64,000 nt of DNA from Thermoplasmatales archaeon BRNA1. GTDB taxonomy: Archaea > Thermoplasmatota > Thermoplasmata > Methanomassiliicoccales > Methanomethylophilaceae. The stretch is from contig CP002916.1 of the NCBI GenBank assembly GCA_000350305.1, positions 372,001 through 436,000 of the forward strand. Direction: 5' to 3'. A model generated the notes under the pieces. The model had not been told where the DNA came from, did no database searches, and saw only the letters and a program-made list of their open reading frames with translations. Of this stretch, positions 2,750-53,563 are shown piece after piece. The number at the start of each line of letters is the position of its first letter. Within the stretch, counting starts at the first letter, position 1. A program made the translations under genes and the position numbers.

Positions 2750-2757
2750 TCTGGCAC
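2750..2757 (+). repeat. Dispersed TCTGGCAC word, intergenic copy
   Basis: Exact octamer in the 88-bp convergent gap between rpoD and polC, downstream of the shared terminator hairpin. Confidence 0.5.
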
Positions 2758-2764: not shown

Positions 2765-5700
2765 TTAGTAGAAGTCCGAGAGCTTGCACTTCTTGATCTT
2801 GTCGTTGTTGAAGAGCGAGTTCATGGAGGTCTCGATGATCTCGATCCTCTCCTTGGTGTAGTAGCCGAGGTCGTACTTCTCGCAGACGTTCTTGGAGACC
2901 TCTAGGTACTTCCTGACGGATGCCTCGTGGACGGTGAGGTTGAGGCTGTGGCCGCACTTTGTGCAGACCCCCTTCAGGGGGACGCGCCTGTACTTCTCGC
3001 CGCACTTGGTGCACCTGACGGTCTGGGTGGCGAACGACCTGAGGTTCCCGATCATGTCGGGCATGAAGTGCTTGTTGATGACCAGCTTCGCCACGTCCTG
3101 GGCGTCCACGGCGCGGCACTTCATCCCCAGCTCCAGCTGGGCGGTCATCTTGTCTGTCATGGAGCCCAGGGTGGTGTAGGCGGACTCCTTCGGGCCCTCG
3201 GAGATGTCGCGGGTGTCGTGGGTGAATCCCAGTCCCTCGTACTGCCTCGGGGTGCCTATCCTTCCTCCCACGAGGTCCATGATCTTGTCGATGTTCTTGG
3301 GGTCCTGCATGTCCATGGCAGCCTCGTAGAACTCCTTGGGGTAGTGCCTTAGGCAGTCTACGTTGTGGGCCTCCTTGTCGATCTCGTTGGGGTCGAGCCT
3401 GGTGGTCAGGACGAGGGGACAGTCCATGAGTCCCCCTCTCTGGCTGGGCAGGAAGGTCCTGGAGAAGTTCAGGAGACCGTCGAGCGCGAGGATGATGCAG
3501 TCCTCGTCGCCGTCGCAGTTCCTCCTCTTGGAGGCGTGATAGAACGGGTGGCCGTAGCAGCCCCTGACGTTGGAGTAGCCGATGATCCTGCAGAGGATGC
3601 ATCCGGAGGTGTGGGGGGCGAGCCCGAAGGCTATGGAGCCGATAAGGTCCTCGCGGATCTTGGCGTTGTAGAAGCGGGGAAGGCCGTAGATCCTCTGGAG
3701 CTCGTCATCCACGAATCCCGCGACGCGGACCATGTAGTCGCCGCAGTCCCTGGAGGGGATGATGTCCTGACATTTCAGCTCCACGATCTGGTCGGGGTCG
3801 GTGAGATCCTTCCCGTCCCAGTCGTGGGTGTACCCGAGGGATTTGGCCTTCTCGACGGAGAGGCCGATCTCCCTGCACTTGAAGTGGGTGAGGGGGATGT
3901 CGGTCATGTCGTACCTGACCGTCCCGTCCCTGAAGATGGAGATGTCGTGGTTGCGCCTTAGGATGCCCTTCTCGAGCATCTCGGGGGTCTTGGTCCTGGA
4001 CTTGAGTTTGTCCATGCACTTGAGCGTCTCCTTCGTGGGAGGCTCGTGGAGGATGGCCATCGCCTCGTTGTACTCCTTCTCGATGTCCACGTCGATGGGG
4101 CTGACCCCTCCCTCGGTCTTGCCGAAGGGGGCGGTGTGCTCCCCGCAGTCGTGACAGTACACCAGGGGAGTGATCTTGCCGCACATGGGGCACTTCCTAG
4201 CACTCATCTCGGGCTTGAGGATGTGGTTCCTGCCCTGGTTGAGCATGGTGGGCTCCTCCCCGAGGGCCTTGATGGCGGAGACGGTGTCCCTGACGGTGTG
4301 CGTGGCGTCGTTGAGCGGGAACAGCGACTGGACCATCGGCGCCCCGGCCCTCTCCTTCGCCTTCTCGGGCCTTCCCATACGGGTCCCGACGCGGGTCATG
4401 GAGCGGGCGCGGACGGTGAATCCCGCCGCGGCGCTCACCGCATCGAGGGACTCCTCGCCAGTGAGCTCGGTCCTCTTGGACATAGCGCCGCCGTCCCATG
4501 AGAGGCCGAGGCAGTCGAGCATGGGCAGGGAGTACTTCGTGTCGATGATGACGCTGCCGCCCCTGCAGACGTGGAGCGCGAGCAGGTCCTCAAGGATGGC
4601 CTTGATCTCCGGATCGCGGGGCATACAGAGGTTGCCCTCGGATATGTGCCCCTTCTCCAGGATGAAGTCGCGGAGCTGTACCAGACGGGGGAGTTTCACG
4701 TCCGACCAGTTGAGATTGAACTTGGGATGGAGGGGGACGCCGAGACTCTTGCACATGGCGACGGCCTCCTCGTAGATGGGGTCCCTCCAGTTGTCGGGGA
4801 GGGTCCCGCCGTTGGCCGCCTTGATCTCCTCCTCGTGCCACTCCGTGCAGTATCCGCAGGGGACGAGGACGTGGTTGTTCTCGCAGAACTCCCCGAAGGG
4901 GACGAGGATCTCCCCGTTGTCGACGACCTCCGCCACCTGTTCCTTGACGGCCAGGTAGTCCTCTTTCCTGTCGCAGTAAACCAGGTCTCCGTTCTTCAGC
5001 AGGACGGTGGGTCCCTCGATGGTGTCCACCGGGGTGACGACGCAGGCCTTCCCGGGCCTCTCGATCTTGAGCTGGGTCCCCAGCGCCATGAATTCGTCCA
5101 TGGCGTACATGCTTGCGGGGTTGTAGGCGAGGGACGCGAGACCGGAGGTCCTGGCCCTCCCGTAGCGGAGACGGAACCCTCCCATGCGGCAGGGGTGGCC
5201 GAAGATGGGCCTTCCCGCGACCATGTCCTTGAGGTACTTGGTGGCGGGCTCGACGACCTTCTTCTTTCCCTTGTCGTCGGTGTCGACGGCCTTGTGGAGG
5301 TCCATGTACTTGTCGATGAAGTCCCATCCCTTGATGCCCAGTTTCTTGACGTGCTTCTGGATCTTGGATGCCTTGAGGCACATCCCCTCGGCGATGACGA
5401 GACATGCCCCTCCCCTGACCCTGTTTGTGTCGATCCTGGGGAGGTCCCTGAATCCGGAGATCTCGACCTGCTCGGTGCCCTCTCCGTCAACCATGACGGG
5501 ACACTCGGAGACGATGGTCCTGATCTCCTCGGAAGAAGGTGTGAACTGAAGGTGCTGGCACTGTTTGTACAGGGGGATCTCCTCGTCGAACCTGGCGATC
5601 TCCCCCTCGGTGGGTTTGTACGCTCCGATGCCCATCGCCTGACGGACGACGTCGCAGATGAGGACGGAGATGGCCTGTCCGGTTCCTCCGGATGCCCTGA

Positions 5701-7251: not shown

Positions 7252-7259
7252 TCTGGCAC
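7252..7259 (+). repeat. Dispersed TCTGGCAC word, intergenic copy
   Basis: Exact octamer a few bases past the 3' end of the giant exported-protein gene, in a 109-bp tandem gap. Confidence 0.5.
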
Positions 7260-7264: not shown

Positions 7265-10200
7265 TCATTGCGAGGGGCGGAAGGACATCTTCAGCACCCA
7301 AACGTCGAGAGACTTCGACGGGTCGTCCATGACGTAAGCCGAGCACATCGCCGGGGACATCCCCCTGCAGACTATGCCTATGCGGACCTCGGGGGTGCCC
7401 CTCTCCGAACCAAGCAGATGGCGGATGGAGGAGAGGTTGCATTCCACGTCGATACCGACTTCGACGAGGGAGCCCGAGGCTTTCTTGAATACCGAGGGGG
7501 CGGTCAGCTCGCCGTAGACGGTGACGCCGAGGAAGACGTCGTCGGTGGCAGCGATGTTAAGTTCGATGCCGTACGGGTCCTGGATGTTCAGGAGCATGCT
7601 CTCGGCCCTCCCCACCAGATACTTCAGCACGTCGCTGGCGAGGTCCTTGCCCGCGGTGAGGTAGATCCTGAACCCCCCGTGCGCGGACGACGACATGTCC
7701 GTGATCTCCACCTGGAGGTAGAGGGTGGCCTCGATCAGGCAGCTGGAGATCTGGTCGATGCCCTCGTCTATGGAGTACTGGAAGGTCAGGCGTATGAGCT
7801 TCGACAGGGACTCGGTATCCTTCACTTTCCCCACGTCGTGCAGCGCCTTCTTCGCAGATTCCGCGACGATGTCCTTGACGACGTCCATGAGGATGCCGTT
7901 CTTTTCGAGGATGTCCACGGTGTTCGGGGCACCCATCGTACCGTCGGCGGATTTCCAGGAGGTCCCTCCGTCGATGAACCTCTGGCATGTCCTGCCGTCG
8001 TTGCGACCGTCGGTCATGGTGTCCGTGGTGTCGCGGACGGCACCCTCGGCATCCTTCAGCTGCAGGCGTTCCTTGGAGTTCTTGAGGAAGATCCCGGAGA
8101 ATTCCACCACGGTACGTTCGCCGGGTGCCAGGGATACCGCGTCGAGGACCTTCTTCCCGCCGGAGGAGTTGGTGAGCGTCCATCCCTCCAGGTTCACCGG
8201 GGAACCGGAGAGGTTGATGATCTCCGCCCATTCGTTGTCCCTGTCATCCCCCTCGGGATTGGGTTCGAACTCGTTGATGAGCACCCCGGACTTGATCGGG
8301 GCGTCGTACTTCACCTGGATCCCGGCATCGAGGGAGACCTTGGTTCCCGGGATGACGAACGGGATGTTGTTCAGGGCCGTCCCCAGGGCGGGGACGTCCT
8401 GCAGGCTGAACTCGAGATTCCTGTATTCCACGTACGTCGGGAAGGCTATCGTGAAATCGATCCCGCGAATAGTGCCAGACAGCGAAACGTACGTCTTGCT
8501 GTTCCTCAGGAACGGGTCGATGACCCCGCTGAGCGTCCAGGTCTCGGAGGATGCCGTGAACTTCACGATGAGTATGGGGTCGCCGTTGGATTTCAGCTTC
8601 AGGTCCGCGGTGCACAGGATGTCCACACCGCTCATGCTGCCCTTCAGCGATATGAGGCAGATGTGTTTGGTTGAGCCCAGCAGGGTGGCTAGGTAGAACG
8701 TGAACTTCAGGTCGAATCCCATGTAGCTGATGCCGACGGTCTGAGTCTTGGCGCCCACGTCCACTATCGCCGACATCCCCTCGGCCAGATTCACCGTTAT
8801 GCTGCAGAAGCTCTCGGTCAGCATGGACTTCATGCGTTCGGCGACCTTCTGGATCGGGAGGATGACCTTCTCGTAGATCTCCCTGGCCTTCTCGGTCATG
8901 TAATCCTCCAGATACGACATCACCACGGCGACCCTGGACATGGCCGCCGACGAGATCCCAATGAGTTCGCGGAGGTCGTCCACGAAAGGTGCCAGATGAT
9001 TCAGGAGTGCGAGCTTCGCATCCTCCAGGACATCCGTGCTCACGCCGTACTCCACGCCCGCGAGGGGATAGCCGGAGACCACGGGAACCTCGAGGTACAG
9101 ATGCACGGGGAGGGCCACCCGGTAGTAGGAGTCCGCCATGCCGAAAACCTCAGACATGCTTCCTCTGCCGGTCACCATCAGGGAGAGTTCGTCGTGGGCC
9201 TCCACGGGGATCACCGTGCAGAACGATGCCCCGGTGGAATCGTTGAAGCCGGTCTCGTGTGCGCTCTTGGGGCTTGGGGAGCGCACCATCCCCGTCACGG
9301 CGCTGCGGAGGTTTCCGTCCAGGGACTCGCTGACGGAGGTATCCCCGGAGGCGAATACGAAGGCGGTATCGATGGGGATCTCCATGAGGCCGTCGGCACC
9401 GCTGGAGGCCATGTTCAGCGAGAACTCCCTGCAGACCTTGGAGATCTCGGGGGAGACGTCGAGCAGGACATCCGCCGTGAGCATCCCTCCCCTGAGGATC
9501 CCGATGCACCCCTTCTCGATGATCGAGCTGTTGCTGGTCTCCACCTCGGACAGGACGCTCAGCTGGGAGAGCAGGAGGTCCGCATATGCGCGGTACTCGT
9601 TGTAGATGTGGGCGTTCTCGCCCCTGAACAGGTTGTCCCCGACGCTGTCCGCGACCCTTGCGGCCAGGGCCGCATCGCCGGTCTCTGCGAGGACGTCCTG
9701 CGCCACCCTGTTGCCGAATCCGAAGCCGACGGTGTTGATGATGAACGTGGAGATGCTGTACGAGAAGATCCTGTCCCTGTTCGAGTAGATCGCATCGTAG
9801 ATCGCGGAGTAGAACTGGTCCGGATAGGAGCCGGAATCCACCCTCGATGTCAGACAGTTCCAGAACTCCGTTTCCGCACCGTTCATGGCCTCCATAGCGG
9901 CCGCGCCGAGGGCGGCGGAGAAGTCTCCCGAAGATGTGTCGATCGTCACCGTAGGGAGGCGGTGGGATTCCGCGACATCCGCGACCGCCGCGTTGACCAT
10001 CGAGGTCAGCCACTGTCTGATGAAGTTGGTGTCATCGCGGTAGGTGTCCACGAACGTGGATACCGCCTGCGAGTGCATCAGGTCCACCGGCGGATAGTGG
10101 ATCGTGTAGACCCTGTGGAATCCCTCAACATCCACCACGTACTCGAAGGTCTCTCCCGAGCGGAGGTTCAGGTCCTCTTCGCCGGAGAGCATCTTCTCGA

Positions 10201-11215
10201 TGTACGGCCGGGCGGACATGGTGTCCCTTCCCGTGACGAAGGCGGTCACCGAATCCCACGCATCCTTCAGCCTGTCGGTGACGTAGTCGCAGATCTCCAG
10301 TACCCTGTACCCCATGAAGTAGTCGAACCACTTCAGAACCAGGTCGTCGGCCCTGGCGTAGAGGGCGTTGGCGTACACCGAGCCGAGGTCCAGCTCCACC
10401 TCGCTCCCCATGACGAGGCTTGCGAGGCTGACCGTCCCCGTGGGGCTGCCGTCGGGGTCGCGGATGTACAGCGCCTTGAGGGCGTTCAGGCAGCTCCGGT
10501 AGGAGAGTTCGACATCCTGCGGGGTGAGGATCGCATTGGTCCCCTGGGGGCTGTACGCGGACCTGGCGCCGTAGCCGTTCATCACGCGGAATTGGGCGAG
10601 GGATGTGAGCTGGTGGACCATCATCTGGGAGAGGAGGGTCCCGGAACCGTCAATCGCAGCCGCAAAGAGGGACCCCTGGGTGCTTGCCAGGGGAAGCGCG
10701 CAGCTTCCGTCGGAGACGATCTCCAGGGTGCGCTCGGTCACCCCCGAGGGGCATTCGAATCTCGCGGTCAGCGTCCCCGTGACGGCCACGTACAGGGGGG
10801 TGTAGCCGCCGACATCCGCGGGACCGGAACCGTTGCGCAGCATCCTCTCCCCGACGGACACGTCGTACTCGATGAGTTCCGCCCTGATCCCGGAACTGAC
10901 CATGGGGAACGCGAACTCCAGCCACGACTCGGTGCGTTCCTCGATCCATGCCTTCCGCGACTCGAAATCACCGAGGGAAAAATCGGTACTGGCACTGTAT
11001 ACGATGTCCCCCATCCCCGCGTTCACGTCGGCCCTCACCGCGGCCATCGCGTCGTCGAGGGCGTCGGCGGAATCAGACAGCCCGTCGGAGGAGCATTCGC
11101 TGTCCTCCATGCACGCCGCCGCGACGACGTATGCGGTCACAACCATGAGCATCGCGATCGCCACCGCGGAGAACGGTAGACCTCCCCTGCGGCACCTCTT
11201 CCTGTCCCGAACCAT
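7265..11215 (-). CDS. Giant exported protein with lamin-tail-like domain, function unknown
   Basis: A 1316-residue protein. Basic residues followed by a hydrophobic segment at about 15-35 form a signal or membrane anchor, and a long extracytoplasmic region follows. Residues about 970-1095 resemble a lamin-tail (LTD) beta-sandwich (GVLINEFEPNP, DNEWAEIINLSG, NLEGWTLTN). LTD modules are common in secreted archaeal and bacterial proteins, often next to nucleases or adhesive parts. I recognise no catalytic domain elsewhere. On the minus strand a TATA box (TTTTATATCC) lies about 30 nt before the ATG, so the mRNA is probably leaderless. Three copies of the dispersed TCTGGCAC-type word lie inside it. 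Confidence 0.75.
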   Translation of the reverse strand: MVRDRKRCRRGGLPFSAVAIAMLMVVTAYVVAAACMEDSECSSDGLSDSADALDDAMAAVRADVNAGMGDIVYSASTDFSLGDFESRKAWIEERTESWLEFAFPMVSSGIRAELIEYDVSVGERMLRNGSGPADVGGYTPLYVAVTGTLTARFECPSGVTERTLEIVSDGSCALPLASTQGSLFAAAIDGSGTLLSQMMVHQLTSLAQFRVMNGYGARSAYSPQGTNAILTPQDVELSYRSCLNALKALYIRDPDGSPTGTVSLASLVMGSEVELDLGSVYANALYARADDLVLKWFDYFMGYRVLEICDYVTDRLKDAWDSVTAFVTGRDTMSARPYIEKMLSGEEDLNLRSGETFEYVVDVEGFHRVYTIHYPPVDLMHSQAVSTFVDTYRDDTNFIRQWLTSMVNAAVADVAESHRLPTVTIDTSSGDFSAALGAAAMEAMNGAETEFWNCLTSRVDSGSYPDQFYSAIYDAIYSNRDRIFSYSISTFIINTVGFGFGNRVAQDVLAETGDAALAARVADSVGDNLFRGENAHIYNEYRAYADLLLSQLSVLSEVETSNSSIIEKGCIGILRGGMLTADVLLDVSPEISKVCREFSLNMASSGADGLMEIPIDTAFVFASGDTSVSESLDGNLRSAVTGMVRSPSPKSAHETGFNDSTGASFCTVIPVEAHDELSLMVTGRGSMSEVFGMADSYYRVALPVHLYLEVPVVSGYPLAGVEYGVSTDVLEDAKLALLNHLAPFVDDLRELIGISSAAMSRVAVVMSYLEDYMTEKAREIYEKVILPIQKVAERMKSMLTESFCSITVNLAEGMSAIVDVGAKTQTVGISYMGFDLKFTFYLATLLGSTKHICLISLKGSMSGVDILCTADLKLKSNGDPILIVKFTASSETWTLSGVIDPFLRNSKTYVSLSGTIRGIDFTIAFPTYVEYRNLEFSLQDVPALGTALNNIPFVIPGTKVSLDAGIQVKYDAPIKSGVLINEFEPNPEGDDRDNEWAEIINLSGSPVNLEGWTLTNSSGGKKVLDAVSLAPGERTVVEFSGIFLKNSKERLQLKDAEGAVRDTTDTMTDGRNDGRTCQRFIDGGTSWKSADGTMGAPNTVDILEKNGILMDVVKDIVAESAKKALHDVGKVKDTESLSKLIRLTFQYSIDEGIDQISSCLIEATLYLQVEITDMSSSAHGGFRIYLTAGKDLASDVLKYLVGRAESMLLNIQDPYGIELNIAATDDVFLGVTVYGELTAPSVFKKASGSLVEVGIDVECNLSSIRHLLGSERGTPEVRIGIVCRGMSPAMCSAYVMDDPSKSLDVWVLKMSFRPSQ

Positions 11216-14461: not shown

Positions 14462-14474
14462 ACAAGTGCCAGAT
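14458..14474 (-). repeat. Dispersed word, extended 17-mer copy beside a terminator
   Basis: Read on the minus strand this is ATCTGGCACTTGTAAAA, identical over 17 bases to 53627-53643, which also abuts a terminator. It overlaps the terminator T-tract. Confidence 0.55.
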
Positions 14475-14734: not shown

Positions 14735-15715
14735 TCACTCCTCTTTCTTAGAGGACCTACGGCATCTGCGTGGCTCGTCGGGCTTCTGCTCGACCTGGAG
14801 TCCGGGCACGCCGGTCTTGACGATGTAGGGGGTTCCGCCGTGCTCGGCGATGACCTCGGCGACCTTCTCCGGCTTGTCGGTGAGTGCGACCATGCACCCT
14901 CCTCCGCCGGAACCGGTGAGCTTCGCGCCGAAAGAGAAAGGCTCCACGGATTCGCAGAGCTTGTTGAGCTCGGGGCAGGACACCCCGAGGATGGACAGGA
15001 GCTTGTGGTCGTAGGTCATCAGTGCGCCGAGTTCCTCCAGATCGTTCTCCTTGATGGCCTTCAGGCCGTCGAGGGTGACGTCGCCGATCTCGTCGACGAT
15101 GCCGGCGGCGAACGGGTCGGAGTCCTTGTACTTCCTGACCTTCTCCACCAGGGGGCCGGTGGCCGCCCTGATACCGGTGTTCCCGATGACGAACGTCATC
15201 TCGGGGACCTCGAACCTGGATATGTCCCAGGCGTTCTCCCCCTTCTCGATGCGCCAGAGGAAGTCCTCCTTCCTGTAGGGGACGTTGAGGGCCACACCTC
15301 CTCCGTTGACGGAGGTGGAGGTGTCCATGGGGCTGCCCCTTCCCTGTGCGTCGTATTCCGCCTCGTATGCCTCCCTTGCCACGGACTCGTTGTCGTAGGG
15401 GAGGTTCTTCATCATCCTCACGGCACCGCTGTATGCGGCAGAGAGGGCGGCGGAGGACCCCAGGCCGGAACCGGTGGGGACCCTGCTGTCGATGAAGATG
15501 GAGACGGGGTCGTTGCCGTGGGCCTGCGAGATGTAGTGCATATGCTGAGACATGGTGAACTTCGTCGCGGGACGGCCGTTCACCCGGAAGGTCTTGGCTG
15601 GTGCCAGACGCATGCTGAAACGCATGTCGATGGCGAGGGTCAGTGCGGGTTTCCCGTACACGACTGCGTGCTCGCCGAGTATAACGAACTTTCCGGGTGC
15701 TGAAGCTGAGATCAT
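14735..15715 (-). CDS. mvk: Mevalonate kinase
   Basis: A GHMP kinase of 326 residues that phosphorylates mevalonate on the route to isoprenoid lipids. The N-terminus MISASAPGKFVILGEHAVVYG is characteristic, the ATP-binding loop is GSGLGSSAALSAA, and the C-terminal GHMP motif is KLTGSGGGGCMVAL. The ATG at 15715 overlaps the stop of the upstream unknown gene by 4 nt (ATGA), and a longer upstream open stretch has no family similarity. It is convergent with the lipid operon that uses its pathway product. Confidence 0.94.
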   Translation of the reverse strand: MISASAPGKFVILGEHAVVYGKPALTLAIDMRFSMRLAPAKTFRVNGRPATKFTMSQHMHYISQAHGNDPVSIFIDSRVPTGSGLGSSAALSAAYSGAVRMMKNLPYDNESVAREAYEAEYDAQGRGSPMDTSTSVNGGGVALNVPYRKEDFLWRIEKGENAWDISRFEVPEMTFVIGNTGIRAATGPLVEKVRKYKDSDPFAAGIVDEIGDVTLDGLKAIKENDLEELGALMTYDHKLLSILGVSCPELNKLCESVEPFSFGAKLTGSGGGGCMVALTDKPEKVAEVIAEHGGTPYIVKTGVPGLQVEQKPDEPRRCRRSSKKEE

Positions 15716-16255: not shown

Positions 16256-17398
16256 TCAGTTCCTGAGTTTCTTCATGGTGGATTCCAGGATGTCCATTCC
16301 CCTGTTGATCTTCTCCTCGTTGGCGGCGTAGGAGAACCTGAGGTGTCCCTCGCCGAAGGTTCCGAAGGCGGATCCGGGGGTGCAGATGAGTCCCGCTTTG
16401 ACCAGTTCGTTGGCAAGGTCCTGCGACTTTATGTCGAGGTCGTAGGAGGGGAAGGCGTAGAACGCTCCCTTCGGAGGGACGATGCTCATGCCCGGGATCT
16501 CGTTGATCCTTCTGGAGATGAGGTCCCTGCGGGCCTTGAAGGTCTTCCTCGCGTTCTCGAGGTAGGGATCTATGGAGGGCAGCGCCTTGAGGATGCCGTA
16601 CATCGCAGGCATCCCCGGGCTGGCACACACGTGGTACTGCATCTTGATGAGCGCCTGGGTGGCCTCCTCGTTGGCGATGGTGAATCCCATCCTCCATCCG
16701 GTGACGGCCATCATCTTGGAGAATCCGGATGCGATGACCGCACGGTCGAGGTAGGGGAGGAAGGAGCTGTGCTTCCCCTCGTAGATGAAAGACTCGTAGA
16801 CCTCGTCGGAGAGGATCATGATGCCCTTGTCTTTGGCGATGTCCGCCAGGGCGTTGCGGGATTCCTCGGTGAGTACCCCGCCGGTGGGGTTGGAGGGGGT
16901 GTTGACCACAATCATCTTGGTCCTGGGGGTGACCCTCTCCAGGATGTAGTCGATGTCGGGCTGGAAGTCTCCCTCGGTGAGCCTGTATTCAACGGGGACT
17001 CCTCCTGCGAGCTTCGCGTGGGGGGCGTATATGACGAAACCGGGACTGGGCACCAGGACCTCGTCGCCGGGGTCGATGAACGACTGGGTGATCTCGAGAA
17101 GTGCGGTGGATCCGCTGGGGGTGACCATGACGTCGGCACCCTTCAGGTCGGGGTTGTAGCGGGCGAACCTCTGGGCGATGGCGTCCCTGAGCTCGGGGAT
17201 GCCTGCGGTGGGGGAATACTTGTTCTTCCCCGCGAGGGCGGCTGCGTTCATTCCTTCGATGGCTTCCTTGGGGGGCTCGAGGTCGGGTTCGCCGAGTCCG
17301 AGGTTGACGGAGTCCGGTTTGGCGAGGTCGAACATCTTCCTGATCCCGGACATGGGAACGGAGTCCAGCCTGTCGGACACTTTCATCCCGCGGTTCAT
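16256..17398 (-). CDS. PLP-dependent class I/II aminotransferase (aspartate aminotransferase-like)
   Basis: A fold-type I aminotransferase of 380 residues. It shows the substrate-side LGLGEPDLEPP block, NPSNPTGGVL, the DEVYE motif that contacts PLP, the Schiff-base lysine in ASGFSKMMAVTGWRMG, and a C-terminal R in HLRFSYA that binds the substrate carboxylate. The exact substrate cannot be read; aspartate, aromatic or alanine types are all possible. On the minus strand a TATA-like stretch about 25 nt before ATG 17398 suggests a leaderless start; ATG 17386 is an alternative. It heads the operon with the unknown gene and mvk. Confidence 0.88.
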   Translation of the reverse strand: MNRGMKVSDRLDSVPMSGIRKMFDLAKPDSVNLGLGEPDLEPPKEAIEGMNAAALAGKNKYSPTAGIPELRDAIAQRFARYNPDLKGADVMVTPSGSTALLEITQSFIDPGDEVLVPSPGFVIYAPHAKLAGGVPVEYRLTEGDFQPDIDYILERVTPRTKMIVVNTPSNPTGGVLTEESRNALADIAKDKGIMILSDEVYESFIYEGKHSSFLPYLDRAVIASGFSKMMAVTGWRMGFTIANEEATQALIKMQYHVCASPGMPAMYGILKALPSIDPYLENARKTFKARRDLISRRINEIPGMSIVPPKGAFYAFPSYDLDIKSQDLANELVKAGLICTPGSAFGTFGEGHLRFSYAANEEKINRGMDILESTMKKLRN

Positions 17399-17493
17399 GG
17401 CCACGGCATGGTCGCCGTAGTTTATTATTTGTATTATCAGAAAAGGGGATTCCAACGGCTAACTTAATATCAAAAGAGAGCGGTCGAGAGGGC

Positions 17494-17814: not shown

Positions 17815-18962
17815 CCGGCAAGGCGCTGAACGCCAGGATGCTCTACTACCTCTTCGACTCCGCCAACATGCACAGGTGGAACGACCACCTCCGCACCCTC
17901 GATCTCACCGAACTCGACAAGCAGGCACACAAGGCAGCCATCGCATGGATGCTCGGAAAGGCCGAGGAGGATGCGGGGAACAGAGTGGATTGGCACGTTC
18001 TCATAGAGCATATGCTGTTCTCGTTCCTGCAGAGGATCGCACTCACCGACCTGAAGCCGCAGATCTTCCACCGCATAGTCGAGGAGAAGTCCGATGACGT
18101 CAGCAGGTACGTGCTGGCACAGTTCGACGAGAACATCCCAGAGACCGATGCCGACTTCAGGGGCCGCTTCGAGAGCTACCTGTTCTCCGAGAAGGATTCC
18201 CGCGAGGACGCCATCGTCCGCGCCGCGCATTACCTTGCAACCAAGTGGGAGTTCGATACCATCTACGACGTCAACCGCTCCGTATACGGCATCGAGACCA
18301 CCAAGGAGGAGATAGACTGCCAGATCGGACAGCATTCAGACCTCGTCGCCGTGAAGGAGATGACCACCCGCGGCAGCGGGCTGTTCAAGTTCATCGACAT
18401 CGTGGGGCAGCTCAGGTTCCAGCAGCGCTGGGCGAGGACCCCCAGGATACCTAAGACCACTGTGCTGGGTCATTCCCTGATGGTGGCAAACATGGTGTAC
18501 CTCAGCGACTGCGACAGGCAGGTCCGCGGGGAGCAGGTGTACTACGATTTCTTCACCGCCCTGTTCCATGACCTGCCCGAGGTGCTGACCAAAGATGTCA
18601 TCACCCCCGTGAAGACCTCCGTCAACGGCCTTCCCGACCTCCTCGAGGGGATCGAGCACGAACTCGTGGAGAACACCATCATGCCCCTGATTCCGGAGTC
18701 CTGGAGGAAGGACTTGGGATTCATGGCATACGACCCGTTCTCCGACAGCGAATCCCCAGTCAGGGACGGACACGCAATCAAGGCATGTGACTGGCTGGCG
18801 GCTTGGATGGAGGCGCACATCTCCATCGTCTACGGGGTGTCCTCGAAGGCCCTCCGCGACGGAAAGGTGGAGATCGGAAGGAAGCTTACCGCGGCGGGAA
18901 GCTACGGGGACGCAATCGGCGCCTCGGACATCCTGTTCGACTTCGAGAAGTTCGAGTTCTGA
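17811..18962 (+). CDS. HD-domain metal-dependent phosphohydrolase
   Basis: A 383-residue protein with an unrecognised N-terminal helical half and a C-terminal HD domain of the YfbR/HDc type. Metal-ligand motifs are the H of LGHSLMVANM, HD in LFHDLPEVLTKD and a downstream D in AIKACDWLAAW. The HDLPE signature is typical of nucleotidase-like HD proteins. It starts at GTG 17811, overlapping the upstream stop, and ends 4 bp before dus. Its substrate cannot be read from sequence; a 5'-nucleotidase is one possibility. Confidence 0.82.
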   Translation: MTGKALNARMLYYLFDSANMHRWNDHLRTLDLTELDKQAHKAAIAWMLGKAEEDAGNRVDWHVLIEHMLFSFLQRIALTDLKPQIFHRIVEEKSDDVSRYVLAQFDENIPETDADFRGRFESYLFSEKDSREDAIVRAAHYLATKWEFDTIYDVNRSVYGIETTKEEIDCQIGQHSDLVAVKEMTTRGSGLFKFIDIVGQLRFQQRWARTPRIPKTTVLGHSLMVANMVYLSDCDRQVRGEQVYYDFFTALFHDLPEVLTKDVITPVKTSVNGLPDLLEGIEHELVENTIMPLIPESWRKDLGFMAYDPFSDSESPVRDGHAIKACDWLAAWMEAHISIVYGVSSKALRDGKVEIGRKLTAAGSYGDAIGASDILFDFEKFEF

Positions 18963-18966: not shown

Positions 18967-19983
18967 ATGTGGAAGATCGGAGACATCGGGATCGAGGGAC
19001 GCGTGGTCCTGGGGCCGATGTCCGGCTTCACCTCGCGCGCCTACCGCGATTTCATGAAGCCCTTCGGGGCGGCCGTCTCCATCACCGAGATGGCCTCCGC
19101 CACGGGGGTGCTGCACGGCATGGGGAAGACCGGCCCGTACATCCGTTTCGAGGGCAACTACCCTACGGGCGTCCAGCTGTTCGGCGGCGACCCCGATACC
19201 CTGGCATCCGCCGCGGAGAAGGCCCTGGAGGTGAATCCGGAGATCGCGTTCTTCGACGTGAACATGGGGTGTCCCGTCGCCAAGGTCGTACGCAATCAAG
19301 CCGGTTCGTTCCTGATGAAGGAGCCCGGGAGATGCGCCGAGATCGTCAGGAAGATGAAGTCCAAGGTGGACGTCCCGGTCACCGCGAAGATACGTCTAGG
19401 ATGGAGTGCTGGCACTGTTAATTTCAGGGAGATCATCCCGCTCCTGGAGGAGGCGGGAGCGGATGCGGTGATGCTGCATGCGCGCACCCGCGAGGAGCGC
19501 TATGCGGGCGAGCCCCACTACGATATGGTGGAGGGGCTGAGGAAGGAGATGTCGGTCCCGCTGGTGATATCCGGGAACATCTACTCGCTGAACGATGCAA
19601 TCCGCGCCGCGGAGATCACCGGCGCGGAGGGCATCATGGCGGCACGCGGTGCAGTGGGGAATCCCTACCTCATCACTCAGATCGACCGCTACTTCCGCAC
19701 CGGGGAGAGGCTTCCCAACCCCACGGTATCTCAGCAGGTGGAATGGTGCAAGAGGTTCTCCGACGCGATCATCGAGGAGAGCGGCGACGAGGTCGGCATC
19801 CGCAGGCTCCGCACGTACGCTCCCAGGTTCATCGCCGGATGCCACGGCTGCAGGGAGTACAGGAAGAGGCTCGCCACCGAGACATACAGCAGGGAGGCGC
19901 TCTTCGGGATACTCGACGAGATAGATTCCCTGATGAGTGACGACCGCATCTTCACCGAAGGACGCGGACCTTACGAAGAATGA
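18967..19983 (+). CDS. dus: tRNA-dihydrouridine synthase family protein
   Basis: A 338-residue FMN TIM-barrel reductase that converts uridines in tRNA to dihydrouridine. Family motifs are VVLGPMSGFTSRAYR at the N-terminus, DVNMGCPVAKV with the catalytic Cys, the K/R of VTAKIRLGW, the HARTREERYAG block and AARGAVGNPYL for phosphate binding. ATG 18967 follows the HD gene by 4 bp. A copy of the dispersed word (19408-19419) falls in-frame in codons that break the local bias (AGT GCT GGC ACT GTT AAT). Confidence 0.9.
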   Translation: MWKIGDIGIEGRVVLGPMSGFTSRAYRDFMKPFGAAVSITEMASATGVLHGMGKTGPYIRFEGNYPTGVQLFGGDPDTLASAAEKALEVNPEIAFFDVNMGCPVAKVVRNQAGSFLMKEPGRCAEIVRKMKSKVDVPVTAKIRLGWSAGTVNFREIIPLLEEAGADAVMLHARTREERYAGEPHYDMVEGLRKEMSVPLVISGNIYSLNDAIRAAEITGAEGIMAARGAVGNPYLITQIDRYFRTGERLPNPTVSQQVEWCKRFSDAIIEESGDEVGIRRLRTYAPRFIAGCHGCREYRKRLATETYSREALFGILDEIDSLMSDDRIFTEGRGPYEE

Positions 19984-21620: not shown

Positions 21621-21934
21621 TTTCTCTGCTCCTTGAGATACGGCATGCGCCAGACGGTCCCGCAGCATTTGCATCTGGAGACGATCTTGTGGCCGGTCAG
21701 CCTGACCGTGCAGTTCGTCCCTGGGACCAGGGGGAGGTAACATTTTTTGCAGTACCTGAACCCGTCCGGCATGTCCACTCTTGTCTTTCCGCATATCGCA
21801 CGGGAGAGCTCGACGTACCTCCTGGCACGTTCGTCCTTCCCTTCCTTCGCCGCCTTCACGGAAAGGTCGGTGAGGATGGAGACGCGTTCGGAACCGATGT
21901 TCCTGACGACGTTCTTCGGGATATGCTTGGCCAT
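21617..21934 (-). CDS. rnp4: Ribonuclease P protein component 4 (Rpr2/Rpp21)
   Basis: A 105-residue protein subunit of archaeal RNase P, which trims the 5' ends of pre-tRNAs. The N-terminal helices (IPKNVVRNIGSERVSIL, ARRYVELSRAI) are followed by a zinc ribbon with CKKCYLPLVPG and CKCCGTVWRMPY. Length and order of elements match the family. It is first in an operon with a CRM protein and SerRS. Confidence 0.92.
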   Translation of the reverse strand: MAKHIPKNVVRNIGSERVSILTDLSVKAAKEGKDERARRYVELSRAICGKTRVDMPDGFRYCKKCYLPLVPGTNCTVRLTGHKIVSRCKCCGTVWRMPYLKEQRK

Positions 21935-22198
21935 CGGGCGTCCATTTCCCCTTAGATATTAAGGGTTTGTCCCCGTGCGCACGCGCGCGGTCCCAACGGC
22001 CGATCATTCGTTTTCGAAATGTGCCAGATGTCCATAAATGGCAAAATATCGATTCTTCCAGATCCGGAAACGGTGTGCCCGAAACTCTCGCAAGTATTAT
22101 ATTCGGGTCATATATGGGAGCCATAGAAGAAGCGCGACCAAGAGATTATATATCGAATGGCGTTACAACGCTTCATTTAACAGTAAAAGGTGGCAATC
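21935..22198. promoter_or_regulatory. Divergent intergenic region with the L10e promoter
   Basis: No gene is seen in 264 bp. GATTATATATCG at about 22140-22151 is a TATA box that would start L10e transcription near 22174, about 25 nt before the ATG. Another TATA-like TATTATATT lies near 22095. A purine/pyrimidine-alternating GTGCGCACGCGCGCG stretch sits near 21976. A dispersed-word copy is at 22021. Confidence 0.5.
22021..22028 (-). repeat. Dispersed TCTGGCAC word, intergenic copy
   Basis: Exact octamer on the minus strand in the divergent gap upstream of L10e. Confidence 0.5.
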
Positions 22199-22720: not shown

Positions 22721-23700
22721 TGCTGTTCGATCTGCAGATTGATACCATCGAGAGCTGGATCCGCGGCAGGGGTTTCACCTCTGTCGCCCTCCAGCTTCCC
22801 GAGGGCCTCAAGATCAGGGCGACCGAGCTGTCCGACCGCATTTTCAAGGACACCGGTTCAAAAGTCGTTATCCTCGGTTATCCGTGCTACGGCGCGTGCG
22901 ACCTCTTCGTGGATTACAAGAGGTATGCGCAGGGATTGGTCCATTTCGGCCATTCCCCCATCCCCAACCTCCCCCGGGACGACGATGTCCTGTATGTGGA
23001 GGCCCGTGCGGACGTCGACATCTCTTCCCTCGCGGATTCCATTTCCGAACTTCCCTCTAAGATAGGCCTCCTAGCCTCCGTGCAGTACGTCCACCTTCTG
23101 CCCGAGGCGAAGAGGATCCTGGAGGAATCCGGAAGGACCGCGGTCATTGGGAAGGGGGATGACAGGATATTCTATCCCGGGCAGGTCCTGGGATGCAACT
23201 GCTCCTCCGCCATATCCGTGCAGGAGGACGTCGAGGCATTCCTGTTCCTCGGCGAGGGTGATTTCCACCCCCTTGCAGCCACCTTCGGCGTCGCGAAGCA
23301 CGTCTTCATCTACAACCCCGTCACCAAGGAGATGCGCTCCGTGGACGACGTGAAGGACAGGATCCTGCGCAGGAGATTCGCTGCCATAGAAAGTGCCAGA
23401 TCCGCGCAGTCGTTCCTGGTCATCGTCTGCGGGAAGATCGGTCAGTGCCGCATGGACGCCGCCGACAGGATAGAGCAGCAGCTCAGGGATGCCGGCAAGA
23501 CCGTGTACCGCCTGGTGACCGACGAGATCACTCCAAACGCCCTCATCCCCTTTAAGGTGGATGCCTATGTGAGCACCGCCTGCCCCCGCGTCGCAATGGA
23601 CGACCAGGCGAAGTACCAGCACCCGATGCTCACGATCCCGGAGGCCGAGACCGTGCTGGGTCTCCGCACCTGGGACGATTACGTTTTCGATTCCATCTGA
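22720..23700 (+). CDS. dph2: 2-(3-amino-3-carboxypropyl)histidine synthase Dph2 (diphthamide synthesis)
   Basis: A non-classical radical SAM enzyme that transfers the aminocarboxypropyl group of SAM to the diphthamide histidine of elongation factor 2. The three [4Fe-4S] ligand cysteines of the family are recognisable in PCYGACDLF, LGCNCSS and STACPRVAMDDQ. The length of 326 residues is typical of the archaeal homodimeric enzyme. ATG 22720 overlaps the L10e stop (TGATG). The link to translation fits its neighbour. Confidence 0.92.
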   Translation: MLFDLQIDTIESWIRGRGFTSVALQLPEGLKIRATELSDRIFKDTGSKVVILGYPCYGACDLFVDYKRYAQGLVHFGHSPIPNLPRDDDVLYVEARADVDISSLADSISELPSKIGLLASVQYVHLLPEAKRILEESGRTAVIGKGDDRIFYPGQVLGCNCSSAISVQEDVEAFLFLGEGDFHPLAATFGVAKHVFIYNPVTKEMRSVDDVKDRILRRRFAAIESARSAQSFLVIVCGKIGQCRMDAADRIEQQLRDAGKTVYRLVTDEITPNALIPFKVDAYVSTACPRVAMDDQAKYQHPMLTIPEAETVLGLRTWDDYVFDSI

Positions 23701-24976: not shown

Positions 24977-25656
24977 AGAAGGCCGTCGTCCTCCTGTCCG
25001 GGGGATTGGATTCAACCACCACTCTGGCACAGGCCATCGACGACGGTTATTCATGCACCGCGATCAGCTTCAGGTACGGGCAGAAGCACACCAGGGAGCT
25101 GGAGTCCGCGGACAGGGTCTGCAGGCACTACGGGATAGCCCACGCGGTCATCGACCTCGACCTTTCATCATTCCGCTCGGCCCTCACCAGGGACGACCTG
25201 GAGGTCCCCATGGACAGGGAGGGCGACCTGGCCGAGGAGATCCCCATCACCTACGTTCCCGCCAGGAACATCGTGTTCCTGAGCATAGCCGCCGGACTGG
25301 CGGAATCCATCGACGCCGAGAGGATCTACCTCGGCGCGAACGCCGTCGACTACTCCGGATACCCGGACGACCGCCCCGACTTCCTGGAGGCATTCCAGAA
25401 GATGCTCGACAAGGGCACCAAGGCCGGTGTCGAGGGACACACCGTCCAGGTGACCGCACCCCTCCTGTATCTCACCAAGGCGCAGATCGTGGAGCTGGGG
25501 ATGAAGCTGAAAGCCCCCCTGGAGCTCACCTGGTCCTGCTACAACGGCGGGGAGAGGGCATGCGGGCACTGCGACTCCTGCCGCCTGAGGCTGGAGGGAT
25601 TCCGCAAGGCGGGATTCAGGGATCCGATCGCCTACGAGGAAGGGATCCAGCAATGA
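24973..25656 (+). CDS. queC: 7-cyano-7-deazaguanine (preQ0) synthase QueC
   Basis: A 227-residue ATP-dependent ligase that makes preQ0 from 7-carboxy-7-deazaguanine and ammonia. The N-terminal PP-loop is LLSGGLDSTT. The C-terminal zinc site has four cysteines, CYNGGERACGHCDSCRLR. The motif YVPARNIVFLSIA is conserved. ATG 24973 overlaps the queD stop. In archaea preQ0 is inserted at tRNA position 15 by TgtA (not in the window). Confidence 0.94.
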   Translation: MKKAVVLLSGGLDSTTTLAQAIDDGYSCTAISFRYGQKHTRELESADRVCRHYGIAHAVIDLDLSSFRSALTRDDLEVPMDREGDLAEEIPITYVPARNIVFLSIAAGLAESIDAERIYLGANAVDYSGYPDDRPDFLEAFQKMLDKGTKAGVEGHTVQVTAPLLYLTKAQIVELGMKLKAPLELTWSCYNGGERACGHCDSCRLRLEGFRKAGFRDPIAYEEGIQQ

Positions 25657-26282
25657 AGGTCGTCGAGCACTTCCTTTCGCTCCAGGGGGAGGGCCTCATG
25701 ATCGGCCGTCTCACCTACTTCATCCGCACCGCGGGATGCAGCCTCCGCTGTGCCTGGTGCGATACCGCATGGTCGAGGAGATTCGACCAGGGCGAGGAGA
25801 TGTCCGTTTCCCAGATACTGGCACTTGTGAAGGACGTTCGGAACGTTTGCGTCACCGGAGGGGAGCCCCTCGAGCAGGAGGAGATGCCCAAGCTTCTGCA
25901 GGCGCTCGCGGACGCGGGCAAGACCGTGGTCCTGGAGACCAACGGATCCATGGACATCTCGGTGGTCCCCCATTCGGAGAACATCATAATCAGCATGGAC
26001 ATCAAGTGCCCCTCCTCCGGGATGCAGGACAGGATGTACCTGGGCAACATGCTCTCACTTACTGCGAAGGACCAGCTGAAGTTCGTCATCGCCGACAGGC
26101 AGGACCTGGATTACGCCGAGAACTTCATCAGGGAACACCCTACCGACGCCAACGTGATCTTCTCGGCAGTCGGCGGACTGGACATCAGGACCCTCGCTGA
26201 GGAAGTGGTCTCGAAGGGACTCGACGTGAGGGTGCTCCCCCAGCTCCACAAGCTTATCTGGGGAGATAAGAAAGGGGTGTGA
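25653..26282 (+). CDS. queE: 7-carboxy-7-deazaguanine synthase QueE
   Basis: A 209-residue radical SAM enzyme that contracts 6-carboxytetrahydropterin to 7-carboxy-7-deazaguanine. It has the short QueE cluster motif C-x3-C-x2-C in CSLRCAWCDT, the upstream HFLSLQGEGLMIG and the SAM-site CVTGGEPLEQ. ATG 25653 overlaps the queC stop. It completes queD-queC-queE, with QueD and QueE acting before QueC in the pathway. Its stop is one base from the convergent nifX-like gene. Confidence 0.93.
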   Translation: MKVVEHFLSLQGEGLMIGRLTYFIRTAGCSLRCAWCDTAWSRRFDQGEEMSVSQILALVKDVRNVCVTGGEPLEQEEMPKLLQALADAGKTVVLETNGSMDISVVPHSENIIISMDIKCPSSGMQDRMYLGNMLSLTAKDQLKFVIADRQDLDYAENFIREHPTDANVIFSAVGGLDIRTLAEEVVSKGLDVRVLPQLHKLIWGDKKGV

Positions 26283-28042: not shown

Positions 28043-28614
28043 AGGTCATCCTCCTGGACGGAAGCGCGAAGCCTATCGGCAACACCAGCAACATCCTCGC
28101 CGATTTCGCCGACGAGCTCGAGAGGGAGGGTATCGAGACCGAGCACATCCAGCTCTACGCCTACGACTTCACCAGCTGCAACGACTGCCGCACCTGTGAG
28201 GTCCGCGGCGACGGAAGGTGCATCGACGAAGCGGACGGCTTCAACGACATCCTCGATGTCATGAGGGAGGCCGACGGGATCGTGCTCGCATCCCCCGGGT
28301 ACGCGGGAAGTGCCAGCGGCAGGATGAGGACCTTCCTCGAGCGTGCAGCCCTCGTCCTGGAGAAGGGGGACCGCGGGCTCCGCGGGAAGGTCGGTGCGGC
28401 GATTGCCGTCTCCGAGCATGACGGTGCCGAGAGCACCTACATGCAGCTCGTATGGTGGATGCTCAAGAGCGAGATGCATGTCGTCGGGACCTGCCCCATG
28501 CCGATTTTCCATGCCCTCGGACAGTACGAGGACGATACCAAGGCCATGAAGGGGCTCAAGAGGCTTGCCGAGAACATGACCGAACTCATCATGCTCAAAA
28601 CTGGCGAGTTGTAA
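28039..28614 (+). CDS. Iron-sulfur flavoprotein (Isf) family NAD(P)H/ferredoxin-linked reductase
   Basis: A 191-residue flavodoxin-fold protein. The FMN-binding loop near the N-terminus is LDGSAKPIGNTSNI. The compact cluster motif C47-x2-C50-x2-C53-x7-C61 is the CX2CX2CX4-7C arrangement of methanogen Isf proteins. A second FMN-contact loop is SPGYAGSASGRMRTFLER. Isf proteins move electrons between ferredoxin and small acceptors, and one was found with the MCR activation fraction of Methanothermobacter. It is coupled to the VOC gene. It ends in TAA. Confidence 0.85.
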   Translation: MKVILLDGSAKPIGNTSNILADFADELEREGIETEHIQLYAYDFTSCNDCRTCEVRGDGRCIDEADGFNDILDVMREADGIVLASPGYAGSASGRMRTFLERAALVLEKGDRGLRGKVGAAIAVSEHDGAESTYMQLVWWMLKSEMHVVGTCPMPIFHALGQYEDDTKAMKGLKRLAENMTELIMLKTGEL

Positions 28615-31847: not shown

Positions 31848-31855
31848 TCTGGCAC
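31848..31855 (+). repeat. Dispersed TCTGGCAC word, intergenic copy
   Basis: Exact octamer in the 84-bp convergent gap, 40 bp past the importer terminator and 3 bp from the next stop. Confidence 0.5.
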
Positions 31856-32671: not shown

Positions 32672-32847
32672 TTAAATATGCGCCAAGAAAACCGCTTGAA
32701 CAGACCTTGGCCCGCCGCCTCTCGGCTACGACAGAGGTTTCATAGTACTAGTTTGGCTGTCAGCCGGACTCCCTGCCTGGCACGATTGTTTCTCACTGTC
32801 GGAACAAAAAACGAGCAGACCACGGTTAGTTTCCGCGGTCCCTTTTT
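32672..32847 (+). ncRNA. Possible small RNA transcript, unidentified
   Basis: TATA-like TTAAATATG (32672-32680) is followed, with no coding gene, by small stems: CCTCT/AGAGG near 32731-32750, GGCT/AGCC near 32755-32765, and GACCACGG/CCGCGGTC (32818-32825 with 32833-32840, one mismatch). The last is followed by TTTTT (32843-32847). A promoter and a terminator-like hairpin without a gene between them suggest a short RNA of about 145 nt. No tRNA, C/D or H/ACA signature was found. Confidence 0.3.
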
Positions 32848-33364: not shown

Positions 33365-34686
33365 GCCGTTCCGAGCGCGTGAAGACCGTACACGACCCCG
33401 TCCACGGCGGGATCACCGTGGACGGTTTCTTCCTGGACATCCTGGACCGCCACGAGATGCAGAGGCTCAGAGGGATCAAGCAGCTGGGTTACAGCAATCT
33501 GATCTTCCCCGGAGCGAACCACACCCGTTTCGAGCACTGCCTCGGCACATATCATCTCGCGGGGAAGATGGCCAAAGCCATCGGCCTCACCGAGTGCGAC
33601 TCCATGGTAGTCCGCACCGCCGCGCTCATGCACGACATCTGCCACGCCCCCTTCTCCCATACCCTGGAGGGCCTCATGGAGGAGTCCACCGGACTCGACC
33701 ACATGGAACTGGCCAGGAATCTCATCATGGGGAAGTCGCGCACATACAGGAAGAGGGATTCCGACCTCTTCTCCGACGAGCCTCCGATCTGTGAGATCCT
33801 GGAGGACAACGGGGTGGATCCCGTCACGGTATGCGACCTCATCGCCTTCCCGGAGACCACCGATAAGGAGAACGACGAGCTTCAGATGTCCCTCGACGGC
33901 CCCGTGGACCACTTCCCTTCCAAGGACTACATCCACCAGATCATCCACGGACCCGTGGACGCCGACCAGATGGACTACCTCATGAGGGATGCCCACTACA
34001 CCGGCGTGGTGATGGGACACATCGATGTGGACAGGATACTGGCCACCCTGAGGGTGATCAACGACAGGATGTGCATCGAGAGGAGCGGTGCCCCGGCGGC
34101 GGAGGGGCTGATGGTCTCCCGTTCGCTGATGTACTCCTCCGTCTACTTCCACCAGTCCGTGAGGATCGTCAACAGGATGGTGGTGAAGGCCGCGGAGGCT
34201 TCCGGAATGGACATGTCGGACCTCTACCTCCTGGACGACAGCGATCTCCAGCAGGCGCTCCTGTCATGCGGAGGCGTTTCCTCGAGGATCATGAGGCTGA
34301 TACAGAACAGGCTGTTCTACAGGAAGGCCCTGACCGTCGGGACCGTGGACACGGACGAAGATCTGGCACTGTTGCTTTCCAAGTACACTTCGAGGAAGAA
34401 GAGGGCGGAGTTGGAGAAGGACATCGCCGACAGGGCAGGCATCGACGAGAGCGAGGTCTGCGTCGAGATGCCCTCGTCTTCTACACTGCTCTCCAAGATA
34501 CAGATCGGCAAGACAGACGTCTCGATTCTCGACAAGGACGGGAAGATACGCACGCTGTCGAAATCCTCGCCCATCGCCAAGTCCCTTCAGTCCAGGGACC
34601 CGTTCGGATGGAGCGTCGTCGTGGCGTGTCCGCCCGAGCACAGGGAATCCGTCAGCAAGGCGGCTACGAAGATCCTGGGGATCTGA
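33361..34686 (+). CDS. HD-domain phosphohydrolase, SAMHD1/dGTPase-like
   Basis: A 441-residue protein with the family start VKTVHDPVHGGITVDGFFLDILD and the LRGIKQLGYSNLIFPGANHTRFEHCLGTYHLA region that supplies the first histidine. The HD pair is in ALMHDICHAPFSHTLEG and a downstream D in DADQMDYLMRDAHYTGV. Such proteins usually hydrolyse dNTPs or related nucleotides. It overlaps the PUA gene (ATGA). An in-frame dispersed-word copy at 34362 is encoded with uncommon Leu codons (CTG GCA CTG TTG CTT). Confidence 0.88.
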   Translation: MSRSERVKTVHDPVHGGITVDGFFLDILDRHEMQRLRGIKQLGYSNLIFPGANHTRFEHCLGTYHLAGKMAKAIGLTECDSMVVRTAALMHDICHAPFSHTLEGLMEESTGLDHMELARNLIMGKSRTYRKRDSDLFSDEPPICEILEDNGVDPVTVCDLIAFPETTDKENDELQMSLDGPVDHFPSKDYIHQIIHGPVDADQMDYLMRDAHYTGVVMGHIDVDRILATLRVINDRMCIERSGAPAAEGLMVSRSLMYSSVYFHQSVRIVNRMVVKAAEASGMDMSDLYLLDDSDLQQALLSCGGVSSRIMRLIQNRLFYRKALTVGTVDTDEDLALLLSKYTSRKKRAELEKDIADRAGIDESEVCVEMPSSSTLLSKIQIGKTDVSILDKDGKIRTLSKSSPIAKSLQSRDPFGWSVVVACPPEHRESVSKAATKILGI

Positions 34687-51575: not shown

Positions 51576-51583
51576 TCTGGCAC
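51576..51583 (+). repeat. Dispersed TCTGGCAC word, intergenic copy
   Basis: Exact octamer (extended TCTGGCACTTGTTC) 26 bp past the mcr terminator in the convergent gap with ycaO. Confidence 0.5.
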
Positions 51584-52855: not shown

Positions 52856-52903
52856 AAACTATCGTTATGTCCGAGGACATAATAAGACTTGCTGGTGTCT
52901 GGG

Positions 52904-53563
52904 TCATTTCAGGAGACGGTCGAACGCACCGCCCAGATATTTTCTGTAGAACCCGATGACGAATCCCAGGGCGATAGCCGCGAAGATGGTGCCTTCCCTC
53001 ACGCCGCGGAGAGTCCCGAGGGTGGAGACTGCGAGTATCGCACCCAGCGTTACCATGGTGACGTCGTTGATGACCTTCATTTTCGGGAAGGGGATGTGAT
53101 ACTTCGAGACCACGGCCATGACGAATCCCTCCCCCGGAGCCACCAATGTGTCTGCGCGGACCTCCATGAAAACCCCGAAAGCCAGGATGACGGCCGACAG
53201 GATGCACCAGAACCACTGTGCGGCATATGTCTGGGGGTCCACGAAGGATAGCAGTTCAACCCAAATGTCCACGAAGATCCCGAGGATGAAAGCGACCGCC
53301 AGCTGGAGGACCTGGAAGATCCGGAAATCCTTCCTTAGGATGAGGGCCTCCAGGACGATCAGTATCGCGTTGACGATGATGGTCCATGCCCCGATGGTCA
53401 GCCAGGAATAGCTCAGAACCGCAGGTATGCAGGAGATCGGGGTGGTGCCAAGCTCCGCCAACTTGGACATTGCGATTCCGCATGCCATGAAGAAGAGGGC
53501 TATTACGAGCAGGCAGTAGCGCTTCGCAAGCTGCCTCCCCGTGTACTCGTAACCATCTTCCAT
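52904..53563 (-). CDS. YczE/YitT-type integral membrane protein
   Basis: A 219-residue membrane protein with about five or six TM helices, starting with YCLLVIALFFMACGIAMSKLAELGTTPISCIPAVLSY-type sequence split by short loops. The GTTPIS and VAPGEGFVMAVV turns are typical of the DUF161/DUF6198 membrane family. Substrate and role are unknown. It lies 48 bp upstream of ycaO on the same strand; co-transcription is possible. Confidence 0.8.
   Translation of the reverse strand: MEDGYEYTGRQLAKRYCLLVIALFFMACGIAMSKLAELGTTPISCIPAVLSYSWLTIGAWTIIVNAILIVLEALILRKDFRIFQVLQLAVAFILGIFVDIWVELLSFVDPQTYAAQWFWCILSAVILAFGVFMEVRADTLVAPGEGFVMAVVSKYHIPFPKMKVINDVTMVTLGAILAVSTLGTLRGVREGTIFAAIALGFVIGFYRKYLGGAFDRLLK

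Follow-up and report, generated by a model that had tools for sequence, protein, structure and literature searches.

A rigid, abundant DNA word in gut archaea of the Methanomethylophilaceae and its possible relation to a bacterial-type AddAB enzyme

In the dus gene of the rumen methanogen Thermoplasmatales archaeon BRNA1 the heptamer CTGGCAC is spelled in codons that the gene otherwise avoids, and further copies of the same string lie in other genes, in different reading frames. What maintains such a string, and whether it is the DNA or the encoded peptide that is being maintained, is the question this locus raises. The window studied here is the whole 64,000-nucleotide stretch at positions 372001-436000 of the single contig (C1) of this genome (G000; 1,461,105 bp), which has been described as measuring 1.46 Mb with 58% G+C (PMC5011839).

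CTGGCAC occurs 35 times in the 64-kb window against 8.6 expected, and none of 100 shuffles reached as high a count. For 464 kb sampled across the genome a third-order Markov model predicts 60 copies where 184 are found, and the same model gives 13.4 for TCTGGCAC and 8.7 for CTGGCACT where 112 and 107 are observed. The genome as a whole contains TCTGGCACWT 188 times and the same pattern in reversed reading 12 times. The full word is approximately T-CTGGCAC-(T/A)-T-N-T, that is the short form TCTGGCAC followed by T/A-rich bases; a logo of 183 copies reads T (0.61), CTGGCAC, T/A (0.83), T (0.55), T (0.42), T (0.62), with nothing strong farther out. The word is rigid, as nearly any swap of a core letter brings the count to background or lower. 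Copies are found on both strands, within and between genes (Table 1), and TCTGGCAC is met about once per 4.1 kb with random gap lengths (CV 0.99). Strong copies are sense in 33 and antisense in 30 cases, and a signal at the RNA level was rejected on account of this equality. Intergenic DNA, 13% of the bases, holds 46 of the 184 CTGGCAC copies of the 464-kb sample, and several intergenic copies lie right after stop codons or just ahead of terminator-like hairpins.

Table 1. Copies of the word and of its sister word in the window (window positions; gene coordinates with strand in brackets), and the AddAB locus (genome positions).
Feature	Position	Strand	Context
CTGGCAC	2751..2757	+	intergenic
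CTGGCAC	5555..5561	+	antisense in gene 2765-6151(-)
CTGGCAC	7253..7259	+	intergenic, adjoins end of gene 7265-11164(-)
CTGGCAC, weak, no flank preference	8125..8131	-	sense in 7265-11164(-)
Earlier-noted copy TCT GGC ACT ATT	8472..8478	-	sense frame 1 in 7265-11164(-)
Earlier-noted copy CAT CTG GCA CCT	8989..8995	-	sense frame 0 in 7265-11164(-)
CTGGCAC	10989..10995	+	antisense in 7265-11164(-)
Full consensus ATCTGGCACTTGT	14466..14472	-	intergenic, ahead of terminator-like hairpin
CTGGCAC	15601..15607	-	sense in 14735-15715(-); different peptide without word in G001
CTGGCAC	16620..16626	+	antisense in 16256-17404(-); peptide and word common to G001
CTGGCAC	18114..18120	+	sense in 17811-18962(+); no counterpart in G001
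AGT GCT GGC ACT GTT AAT	19409..19415	+	sense frame 1 in dus 18967-19983(+)
CTGGCAC	21822..21828	+	antisense in 21617-21934(-)
Full consensus	22021..22027	-	intergenic
CTGGCAC	23393..23399	-	antisense in 22720-23700(+)
CTGGCAC	25024..25030	+	sense in 24973-25656(+); G001 keeps Leu-Ala as CTC GCG, without word
CTGGCAC	25818..25824	+	sense in 25653-26282(+) (radical SAM)
CTGGCAC	28310..28316	-	antisense in 28039-28614(+)
Full consensus	31849..31855	+	intergenic
CTGGCAC, weak	32777..32783	+	intergenic
Earlier-noted copy CTG GCA CTG TTG CTT	34363..34369	+	sense frame 0 in 33361-34686(+) (HD domain)
CTGGCAC	36021..36027	-	sense in 34687-36138(-)
CTGGCAC	39073..39079	+	sense in 38389-39792(+) (DHH/DHHA1)
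Earlier-noted copy GAT GCT GGC ACT GAT ATA	39479..39485	+	sense frame 1 in 38389-39792(+)
Earlier-noted copy ACA ACT GTG CCA	40397..40403	+	antisense in 39834-40751(-) (carbamoyltransferase)
Full consensus GTCTGGCACTTGT	51577..51583	+	intergenic
CTGGCAC, weak	52777..52783	-	sense in 51629-52855(-)
Sister word GTCTGGGTCATTTC	52899..52905	+	intergenic
Full consensus ATCTGGCACTTGT	53629..53635	+	intergenic
CTGGCAC	55160..55166	-	sense in 54363-55301(-)
CTGGCAC	55379..55385	-	intergenic
CTGGCAC	56796..56802	-	antisense in 55486-57126(+); peptide and word common to G001
Sister word TTCTGGGTCATT	58709..58715	-	antisense in 57756-59270(+)
CTGGCAC, weak	59333..59339	+	sense in 59267-59692(+)
CTGGCAC	62976..62982	+	intergenic
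Full consensus	63038..63044	+	intergenic
CTGGCAC	63173..63179	-	intergenic
AddAB pair	G000:C1:929843-935753		two adjacent genes

Two further readings of the string were rejected. The heptamer matches a sigma-54 -24 box (YTGGCAC) by chance, there being no -12 TTGC signal at +12 to +15 and the host being archaeal; and copies are not the ends of repeats or MITEs, since similarity stops at the word and paired inverted copies are not in excess. Apart from the word, the window holds eight copies of the palindrome ACGGATCCGT (0.3 expected), some of which resemble terminator stems, and seven of TGAGGTTCTC (0.3 expected). It also holds a large surface-protein-like ORF (41568-45863), inside which tandem repeats of 267 and 249 bp are 97-99% identical; this ORF sits in a word-free stretch of 11 kb.

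The original prediction held that in-gene copies are written in avoided codons. Re-read in the frame of their genes, the six places concerned bear this out. Mean ln relative adaptiveness of the word codons is -2.06 for the dus copy at 19409 (gene mean -0.46), -1.58 at 39479 (gene -0.43), -1.83 at 8472 on the minus strand (gene -0.45), -1.28 for the antisense copy at 40397, ACT GTG CCA (gene -0.26), and -1.18 at 8989 on the minus strand, CTG GCA CCT (gene -0.45); the three word codons at 34363 are slightly rare (-0.62 vs. -0.41), the rarity residing in the 3' codons. Taken over the 138 copies in genes, the codons of the word stand at -0.42 ln units relative to their own genes, the two codons next on the 3' side at -0.39 and the outer flanks at -0.11; for eight other 7-mers the same test gave values between -0.26 and +0.18. 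The test is in part circular, as rare codons are unavoidable for a word with a T/A end in a G+C-rich genome.

Shuffling of synonymous codons, performed 60 times within each of the 481 called genes of the G000 sample, provides a stronger and non-circular test. Genes contain 138 copies of CTGGCAC against 54 +/- 5 upon shuffling (maximum 72 among the 60 shuffles) and 37 copies of CTGGCAC.T.T against 4.6, which corresponds to an in-gene excess of 2.5 to 8 times; three control heptamers showed no excess in the same genes. Sense frame 0 (CTG GCA C) holds 61 copies (10.6 in shuffles), antisense frame 1 holds 27 (4.4) and antisense frame 2 holds 9 (2.1), with an excess in sense frame 1 as well, and the frames with an excess encode different peptides. 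Since the excess appears in several frames, on both strands and in intergenic DNA, the inference that maintenance acts on the DNA string rather than on the peptide can be upheld. Selection and biased transmission (drive) are indistinguishable with the present data. In samples of G000, G001 and G012, the heptamers GGATGCC, CCGCATC, GATGCGA and GAATCCC also exceed synonymous shuffles, which perhaps reflects context-dependent codon choice.

The same prediction had expected that an alignment of orthologues would show the word persisting in place while peptides change, and between G000 and G001 this was in general not borne out. Comparison with the word-rich relative G001 comprised 107 pairs with a median identity of 71%. 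G001 has the word at the same place in 5 of 35 sites, fewer than the 27 of 114 for control words, and an identical peptide at 6 of the 35 word sites against 49 of the 114 control sites; word-free G007 has the word at none of 33 sites. Word density is constant between G000 and G001 despite this turnover. Copies thus sit at variable peptides and turn over between species; density is kept and not position. At the dus site, word-rich G004 and G006 write Ser-Gly-Thr as TCT GGC AC(A/T), which contains the word; G009, in which TCTGGCAC is near background (12 copies) and CTGGCACWT about threefold up, writes the identical tripeptide as TCC GGC ACC, without it; and G007, G010, G005 and G002, all word-free, have other residues there.

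Relatives retrieved with the dus protein are genomes of Methanomethylophilus and Methanomassiliicoccales. Across the order, 24 genomes from outside Methanomethylophilaceae have the word at background. It is confined to this family and patchy even within genera: every g7 genome, most genomes of g1, g6 and g12 and a single g4 genome (G084) show strong enrichment of CTGGCACWT, which is weak or absent in close relatives within several of those genera. There are dialects, CACTT being preferred in G000, CACAT in G001 and GTCTT in G012, and a sister word, TCTGGGTC, is enriched in the same genomes as the main word. We regard the word, its maintenance at DNA level, its turnover and its patchiness as real beyond reasonable doubt. 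Word scans of word-free G007 found no strong replacement, and no other word convincingly dominates in G007, G017 or G023. The G001 sample contains two further abundant words, CTGGGTAT and TGGCTATG, each present 38 times where about 5 copies would be expected; G007 has 22-24 exact copies of GCTTACGCGGGG with its surroundings, which resembles a CRISPR array repeat.

Within G000 the word is missing from one large region. No consensus copy was found over the 130,865 bp between 689,989 and 820,854, and the largest consensus gap in 2000 random draws is 87.5 kb. CTGGCAC is at expectation in the 690-820 kb region (12 vs. 13.9) and far above it in the remainder of the sample (218 vs. 57.5). The region includes a segment of 47.7% G+C without matches in relatives and encodes a resolvase, a phage integrase, BspA-type repeats and two FecCD transporters; it is a mosaic, partly a genomic island, and parts of it hold ordinary genes. 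Genes with matches in the sampled relatives show the same word density as those without (3.14 and 3.23 per 10 kb).

Break resection in archaea is attributed to Mre11-Rad50 and HerA-NurA, with no stop signal of the Chi type (PMC12977600). When nucleases of the RecB type were sought, nearly every family member searched proved to encode two long proteins in tandem. In G000, the first combines the UvrD N and C domains of a helicase with a PDDEXK nuclease at its C-terminus, its best NCBIfam is addA (below cut-off) and AddA is among its PDB matches. The second ends in a PDDEXK nuclease and has cysteines C534 and C890-x2-C893-x5-C899, invariant or nearly so, an arrangement which we take to be the four-cysteine Fe-S set of AddB. 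Its predicted structure is of middling quality (mean pLDDT 79, pTM 0.51); AddB chains are the five best PDB matches in a fold search with this model (4ceh_B, E 7e-14), followed by AdnA, UvrD-type helicases and RecC. The criteria for AddB, namely a helicase-like N-terminus, the nuclease, the cysteine set and adjoining AddA, are thus met, and on the basis of domains, cysteines and fold search we are highly confident that an AddAB helicase-nuclease is encoded in this archaeon. As in Bacillus subtilis, the subunits are adjacent, AddA combines an SF1 helicase with a RecB-type nuclease, and AddB shows a helicase-like fold, a C-terminal nuclease and the C...C-x2-C-x5-C set; unlike in B. subtilis, the host is archaeal, AddB is shorter (914 aa vs. 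about 1,150 aa in PDB chains) and evolves fast, mostly at 31-40% identity between species of one family. No sequence (profile) match of the archaeal AddB to PDB or to B. subtilis AddB was detectable. Full-length AddAB matches occur in family f1, with divergent and somewhat shorter ones in one further family of the class (f11), and other long RecB-type pairs exist in some f2 and f6 genomes. No literature on AddAB or Chi in Methanomassiliicoccales was found among open-access papers.

Chi of E. coli is GCTGGTGG, and firmicutes have their own species-specific Chi words. Bacterial AddAB degrades ends until the helicase-like domain of AddB binds Chi, upon which degradation is attenuated and recombination begins (PMC4824097). 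Chi is over-represented, recurs in E. coli at intervals of about 5 kb, is more frequent in core than in acquired DNA and differs among species (PMC8022716), the words being species-specific (PMC1193525). The archaeal word shows these traits: a single short, rigid, non-palindromic string with exceptional over-representation, among the most over-represented octamers, it is species-specific, occurs about once per 4-5 kb over the core chromosome and is missing from acquired DNA, i.e. the 690-820 kb island region, in genomes that encode AddAB. We give an even chance to the proposal that the word is a Chi-like hotspot of the family's AddAB, since enzyme and word are both observed and the link between them is inferred. 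Recognition is untested; reading by AddAB and every later step, including a change of enzyme activity, are inferences. Such a hotspot would be, as far as we could find, the first for archaea. Rather more tentatively, at somewhat less than an even chance, the whole may form a first archaeal Chi system, in which AddAB and species-specific words TCTGGCAC and TCTGGGTC are gained, lost and respelled among relatives alongside a fast-evolving AddB.

By this proposal, archaeal AddAB would enter at broken DNA ends and degrade DNA until the word moves past AddB's dead-helicase domain and the enzyme changes state, from then on leaving a 3' single strand that would be passed to the recombinase. The word-rich core chromosome would be repaired and word-poor foreign DNA degraded, so that density would be selected and position not. 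Copies might then settle wherever they are tolerated, between genes, at the ends of genes and in peptide segments that lack conservation, forcing rare codons there.

Several features differ from bacterial Chi. The host is archaeal, and the word has a T/A-rich 3' tail, which is unusual for a Chi word. Two words (CAC and GTC) coexist, which counts against a Chi function. Replication polarity is not significant (37+/42- for right-moving and 63+/46- for left-moving forks, p = 0.14, on the assumption that Cdc6 genes mark the origins). Close relatives without the word, namely G007, G005, G010 and most g4 genomes searched, also bear AddAB, and would then have to read another word, a shorter one or none. 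The word behaves like Chi; its membership among Chi sequences is not established.

An alternative reader is a chromosome-organising or segregation protein (a nucleoid protein, an SMC loader or an FtsK/KOPS-like guide) with many sites at a fixed density. Numerous, randomly spaced copies on both strands and a density that stays constant as positions turn over would suit such a protein, and absence from the island is expected if the island arrived recently. Sites bound by proteins tend to be degenerate, and yet variants of the word that differ by one letter are not in excess; moreover there is no significant KOPS-like polarity and no clustering, macrodomain or palindrome, and no candidate protein was identified, so that we consider this reading unlikely.

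A DNA-transfer or uptake signal accumulated by biased transmission is quite unlikely, even if the likeness to Neisseria DUS and Pasteurellaceae (Haemophilus) USS is evident: a rigid string, abundant and ending in a T/A tail, with dialects that distinguish relatives (CAC/GTC, TT/AT), copies enriched between genes and tolerated at unconserved peptides, and absence from the island. Drive plus mutation should leave an excess of near-miss copies, of which there is none. ComEC/Rec2 (PF03772) was detected in 0 of 61 relatives and in 10 of 14 controls, and because of this absence a bacterial-type uptake sequence is improbable. We know of no archaeal uptake word, nor of competence in the host. The word also resembles cyanobacterial HIP1 in being short, highly iterated, patchy and present in genes in any frame; HIP1 is a palindrome, unlike the archaeal word.

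A role of the word as a mark of self DNA within some defence or modification system, for instance through its methylation, would agree with patchiness within genera and absence from the island; we deem it very unlikely, as words of restriction systems are normally avoided rather than accumulated and no linked system was found. An artefact of composition, codon usage or peptides, to which the commonest frame might point since it encodes the frequent dipeptide Leu-Ala, can practically be dismissed, because it is refuted by shuffles that keep peptides and codon usage, by control 7-mers at expectation, by the intergenic excess and by G007, which has similar G+C and proteins and no excess.

Whatever its reader, the word shapes proteins: in hundreds of genes it dictates rare codons, and residues too, where the peptide is not conserved. 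Should it be a Chi-like hotspot of AddAB, a gut-archaeal family that combines a bacterial-type enzyme with an abundant rigid word would provide a Chi system beyond Bacteria that is open to direct testing, and since words change inside genera, one could trace how Chi specificity evolves.

As regards AddB itself, identity to the G000 orthologue is mostly 31-40% across family f1 (same-genus Dus 55-66%), and G000 forms the longest branch of the AddB tree. Word status clusters on this tree, with 11 changes against 16.8 for shuffled labels. When AddB columns were compared with word status and with permuted labels, none was conspicuous by itself; all segments are slightly raised, the N-terminal one weakly and like most others. 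Chi-reading residues that track the word were rejected, as the best-separated segment, 720-914, is the variable C-terminus and not the Chi-reading N-terminus. Two g4 genomes, G084 and G104, have a second AddB of a separate lineage; that of word-rich G084 was dismissed as a lead, its closest relative being in word-poor G104. G013 has a broken or short AddB frame, and those of G002 and G089 have an in-frame TAG, possibly pyrrolysine.
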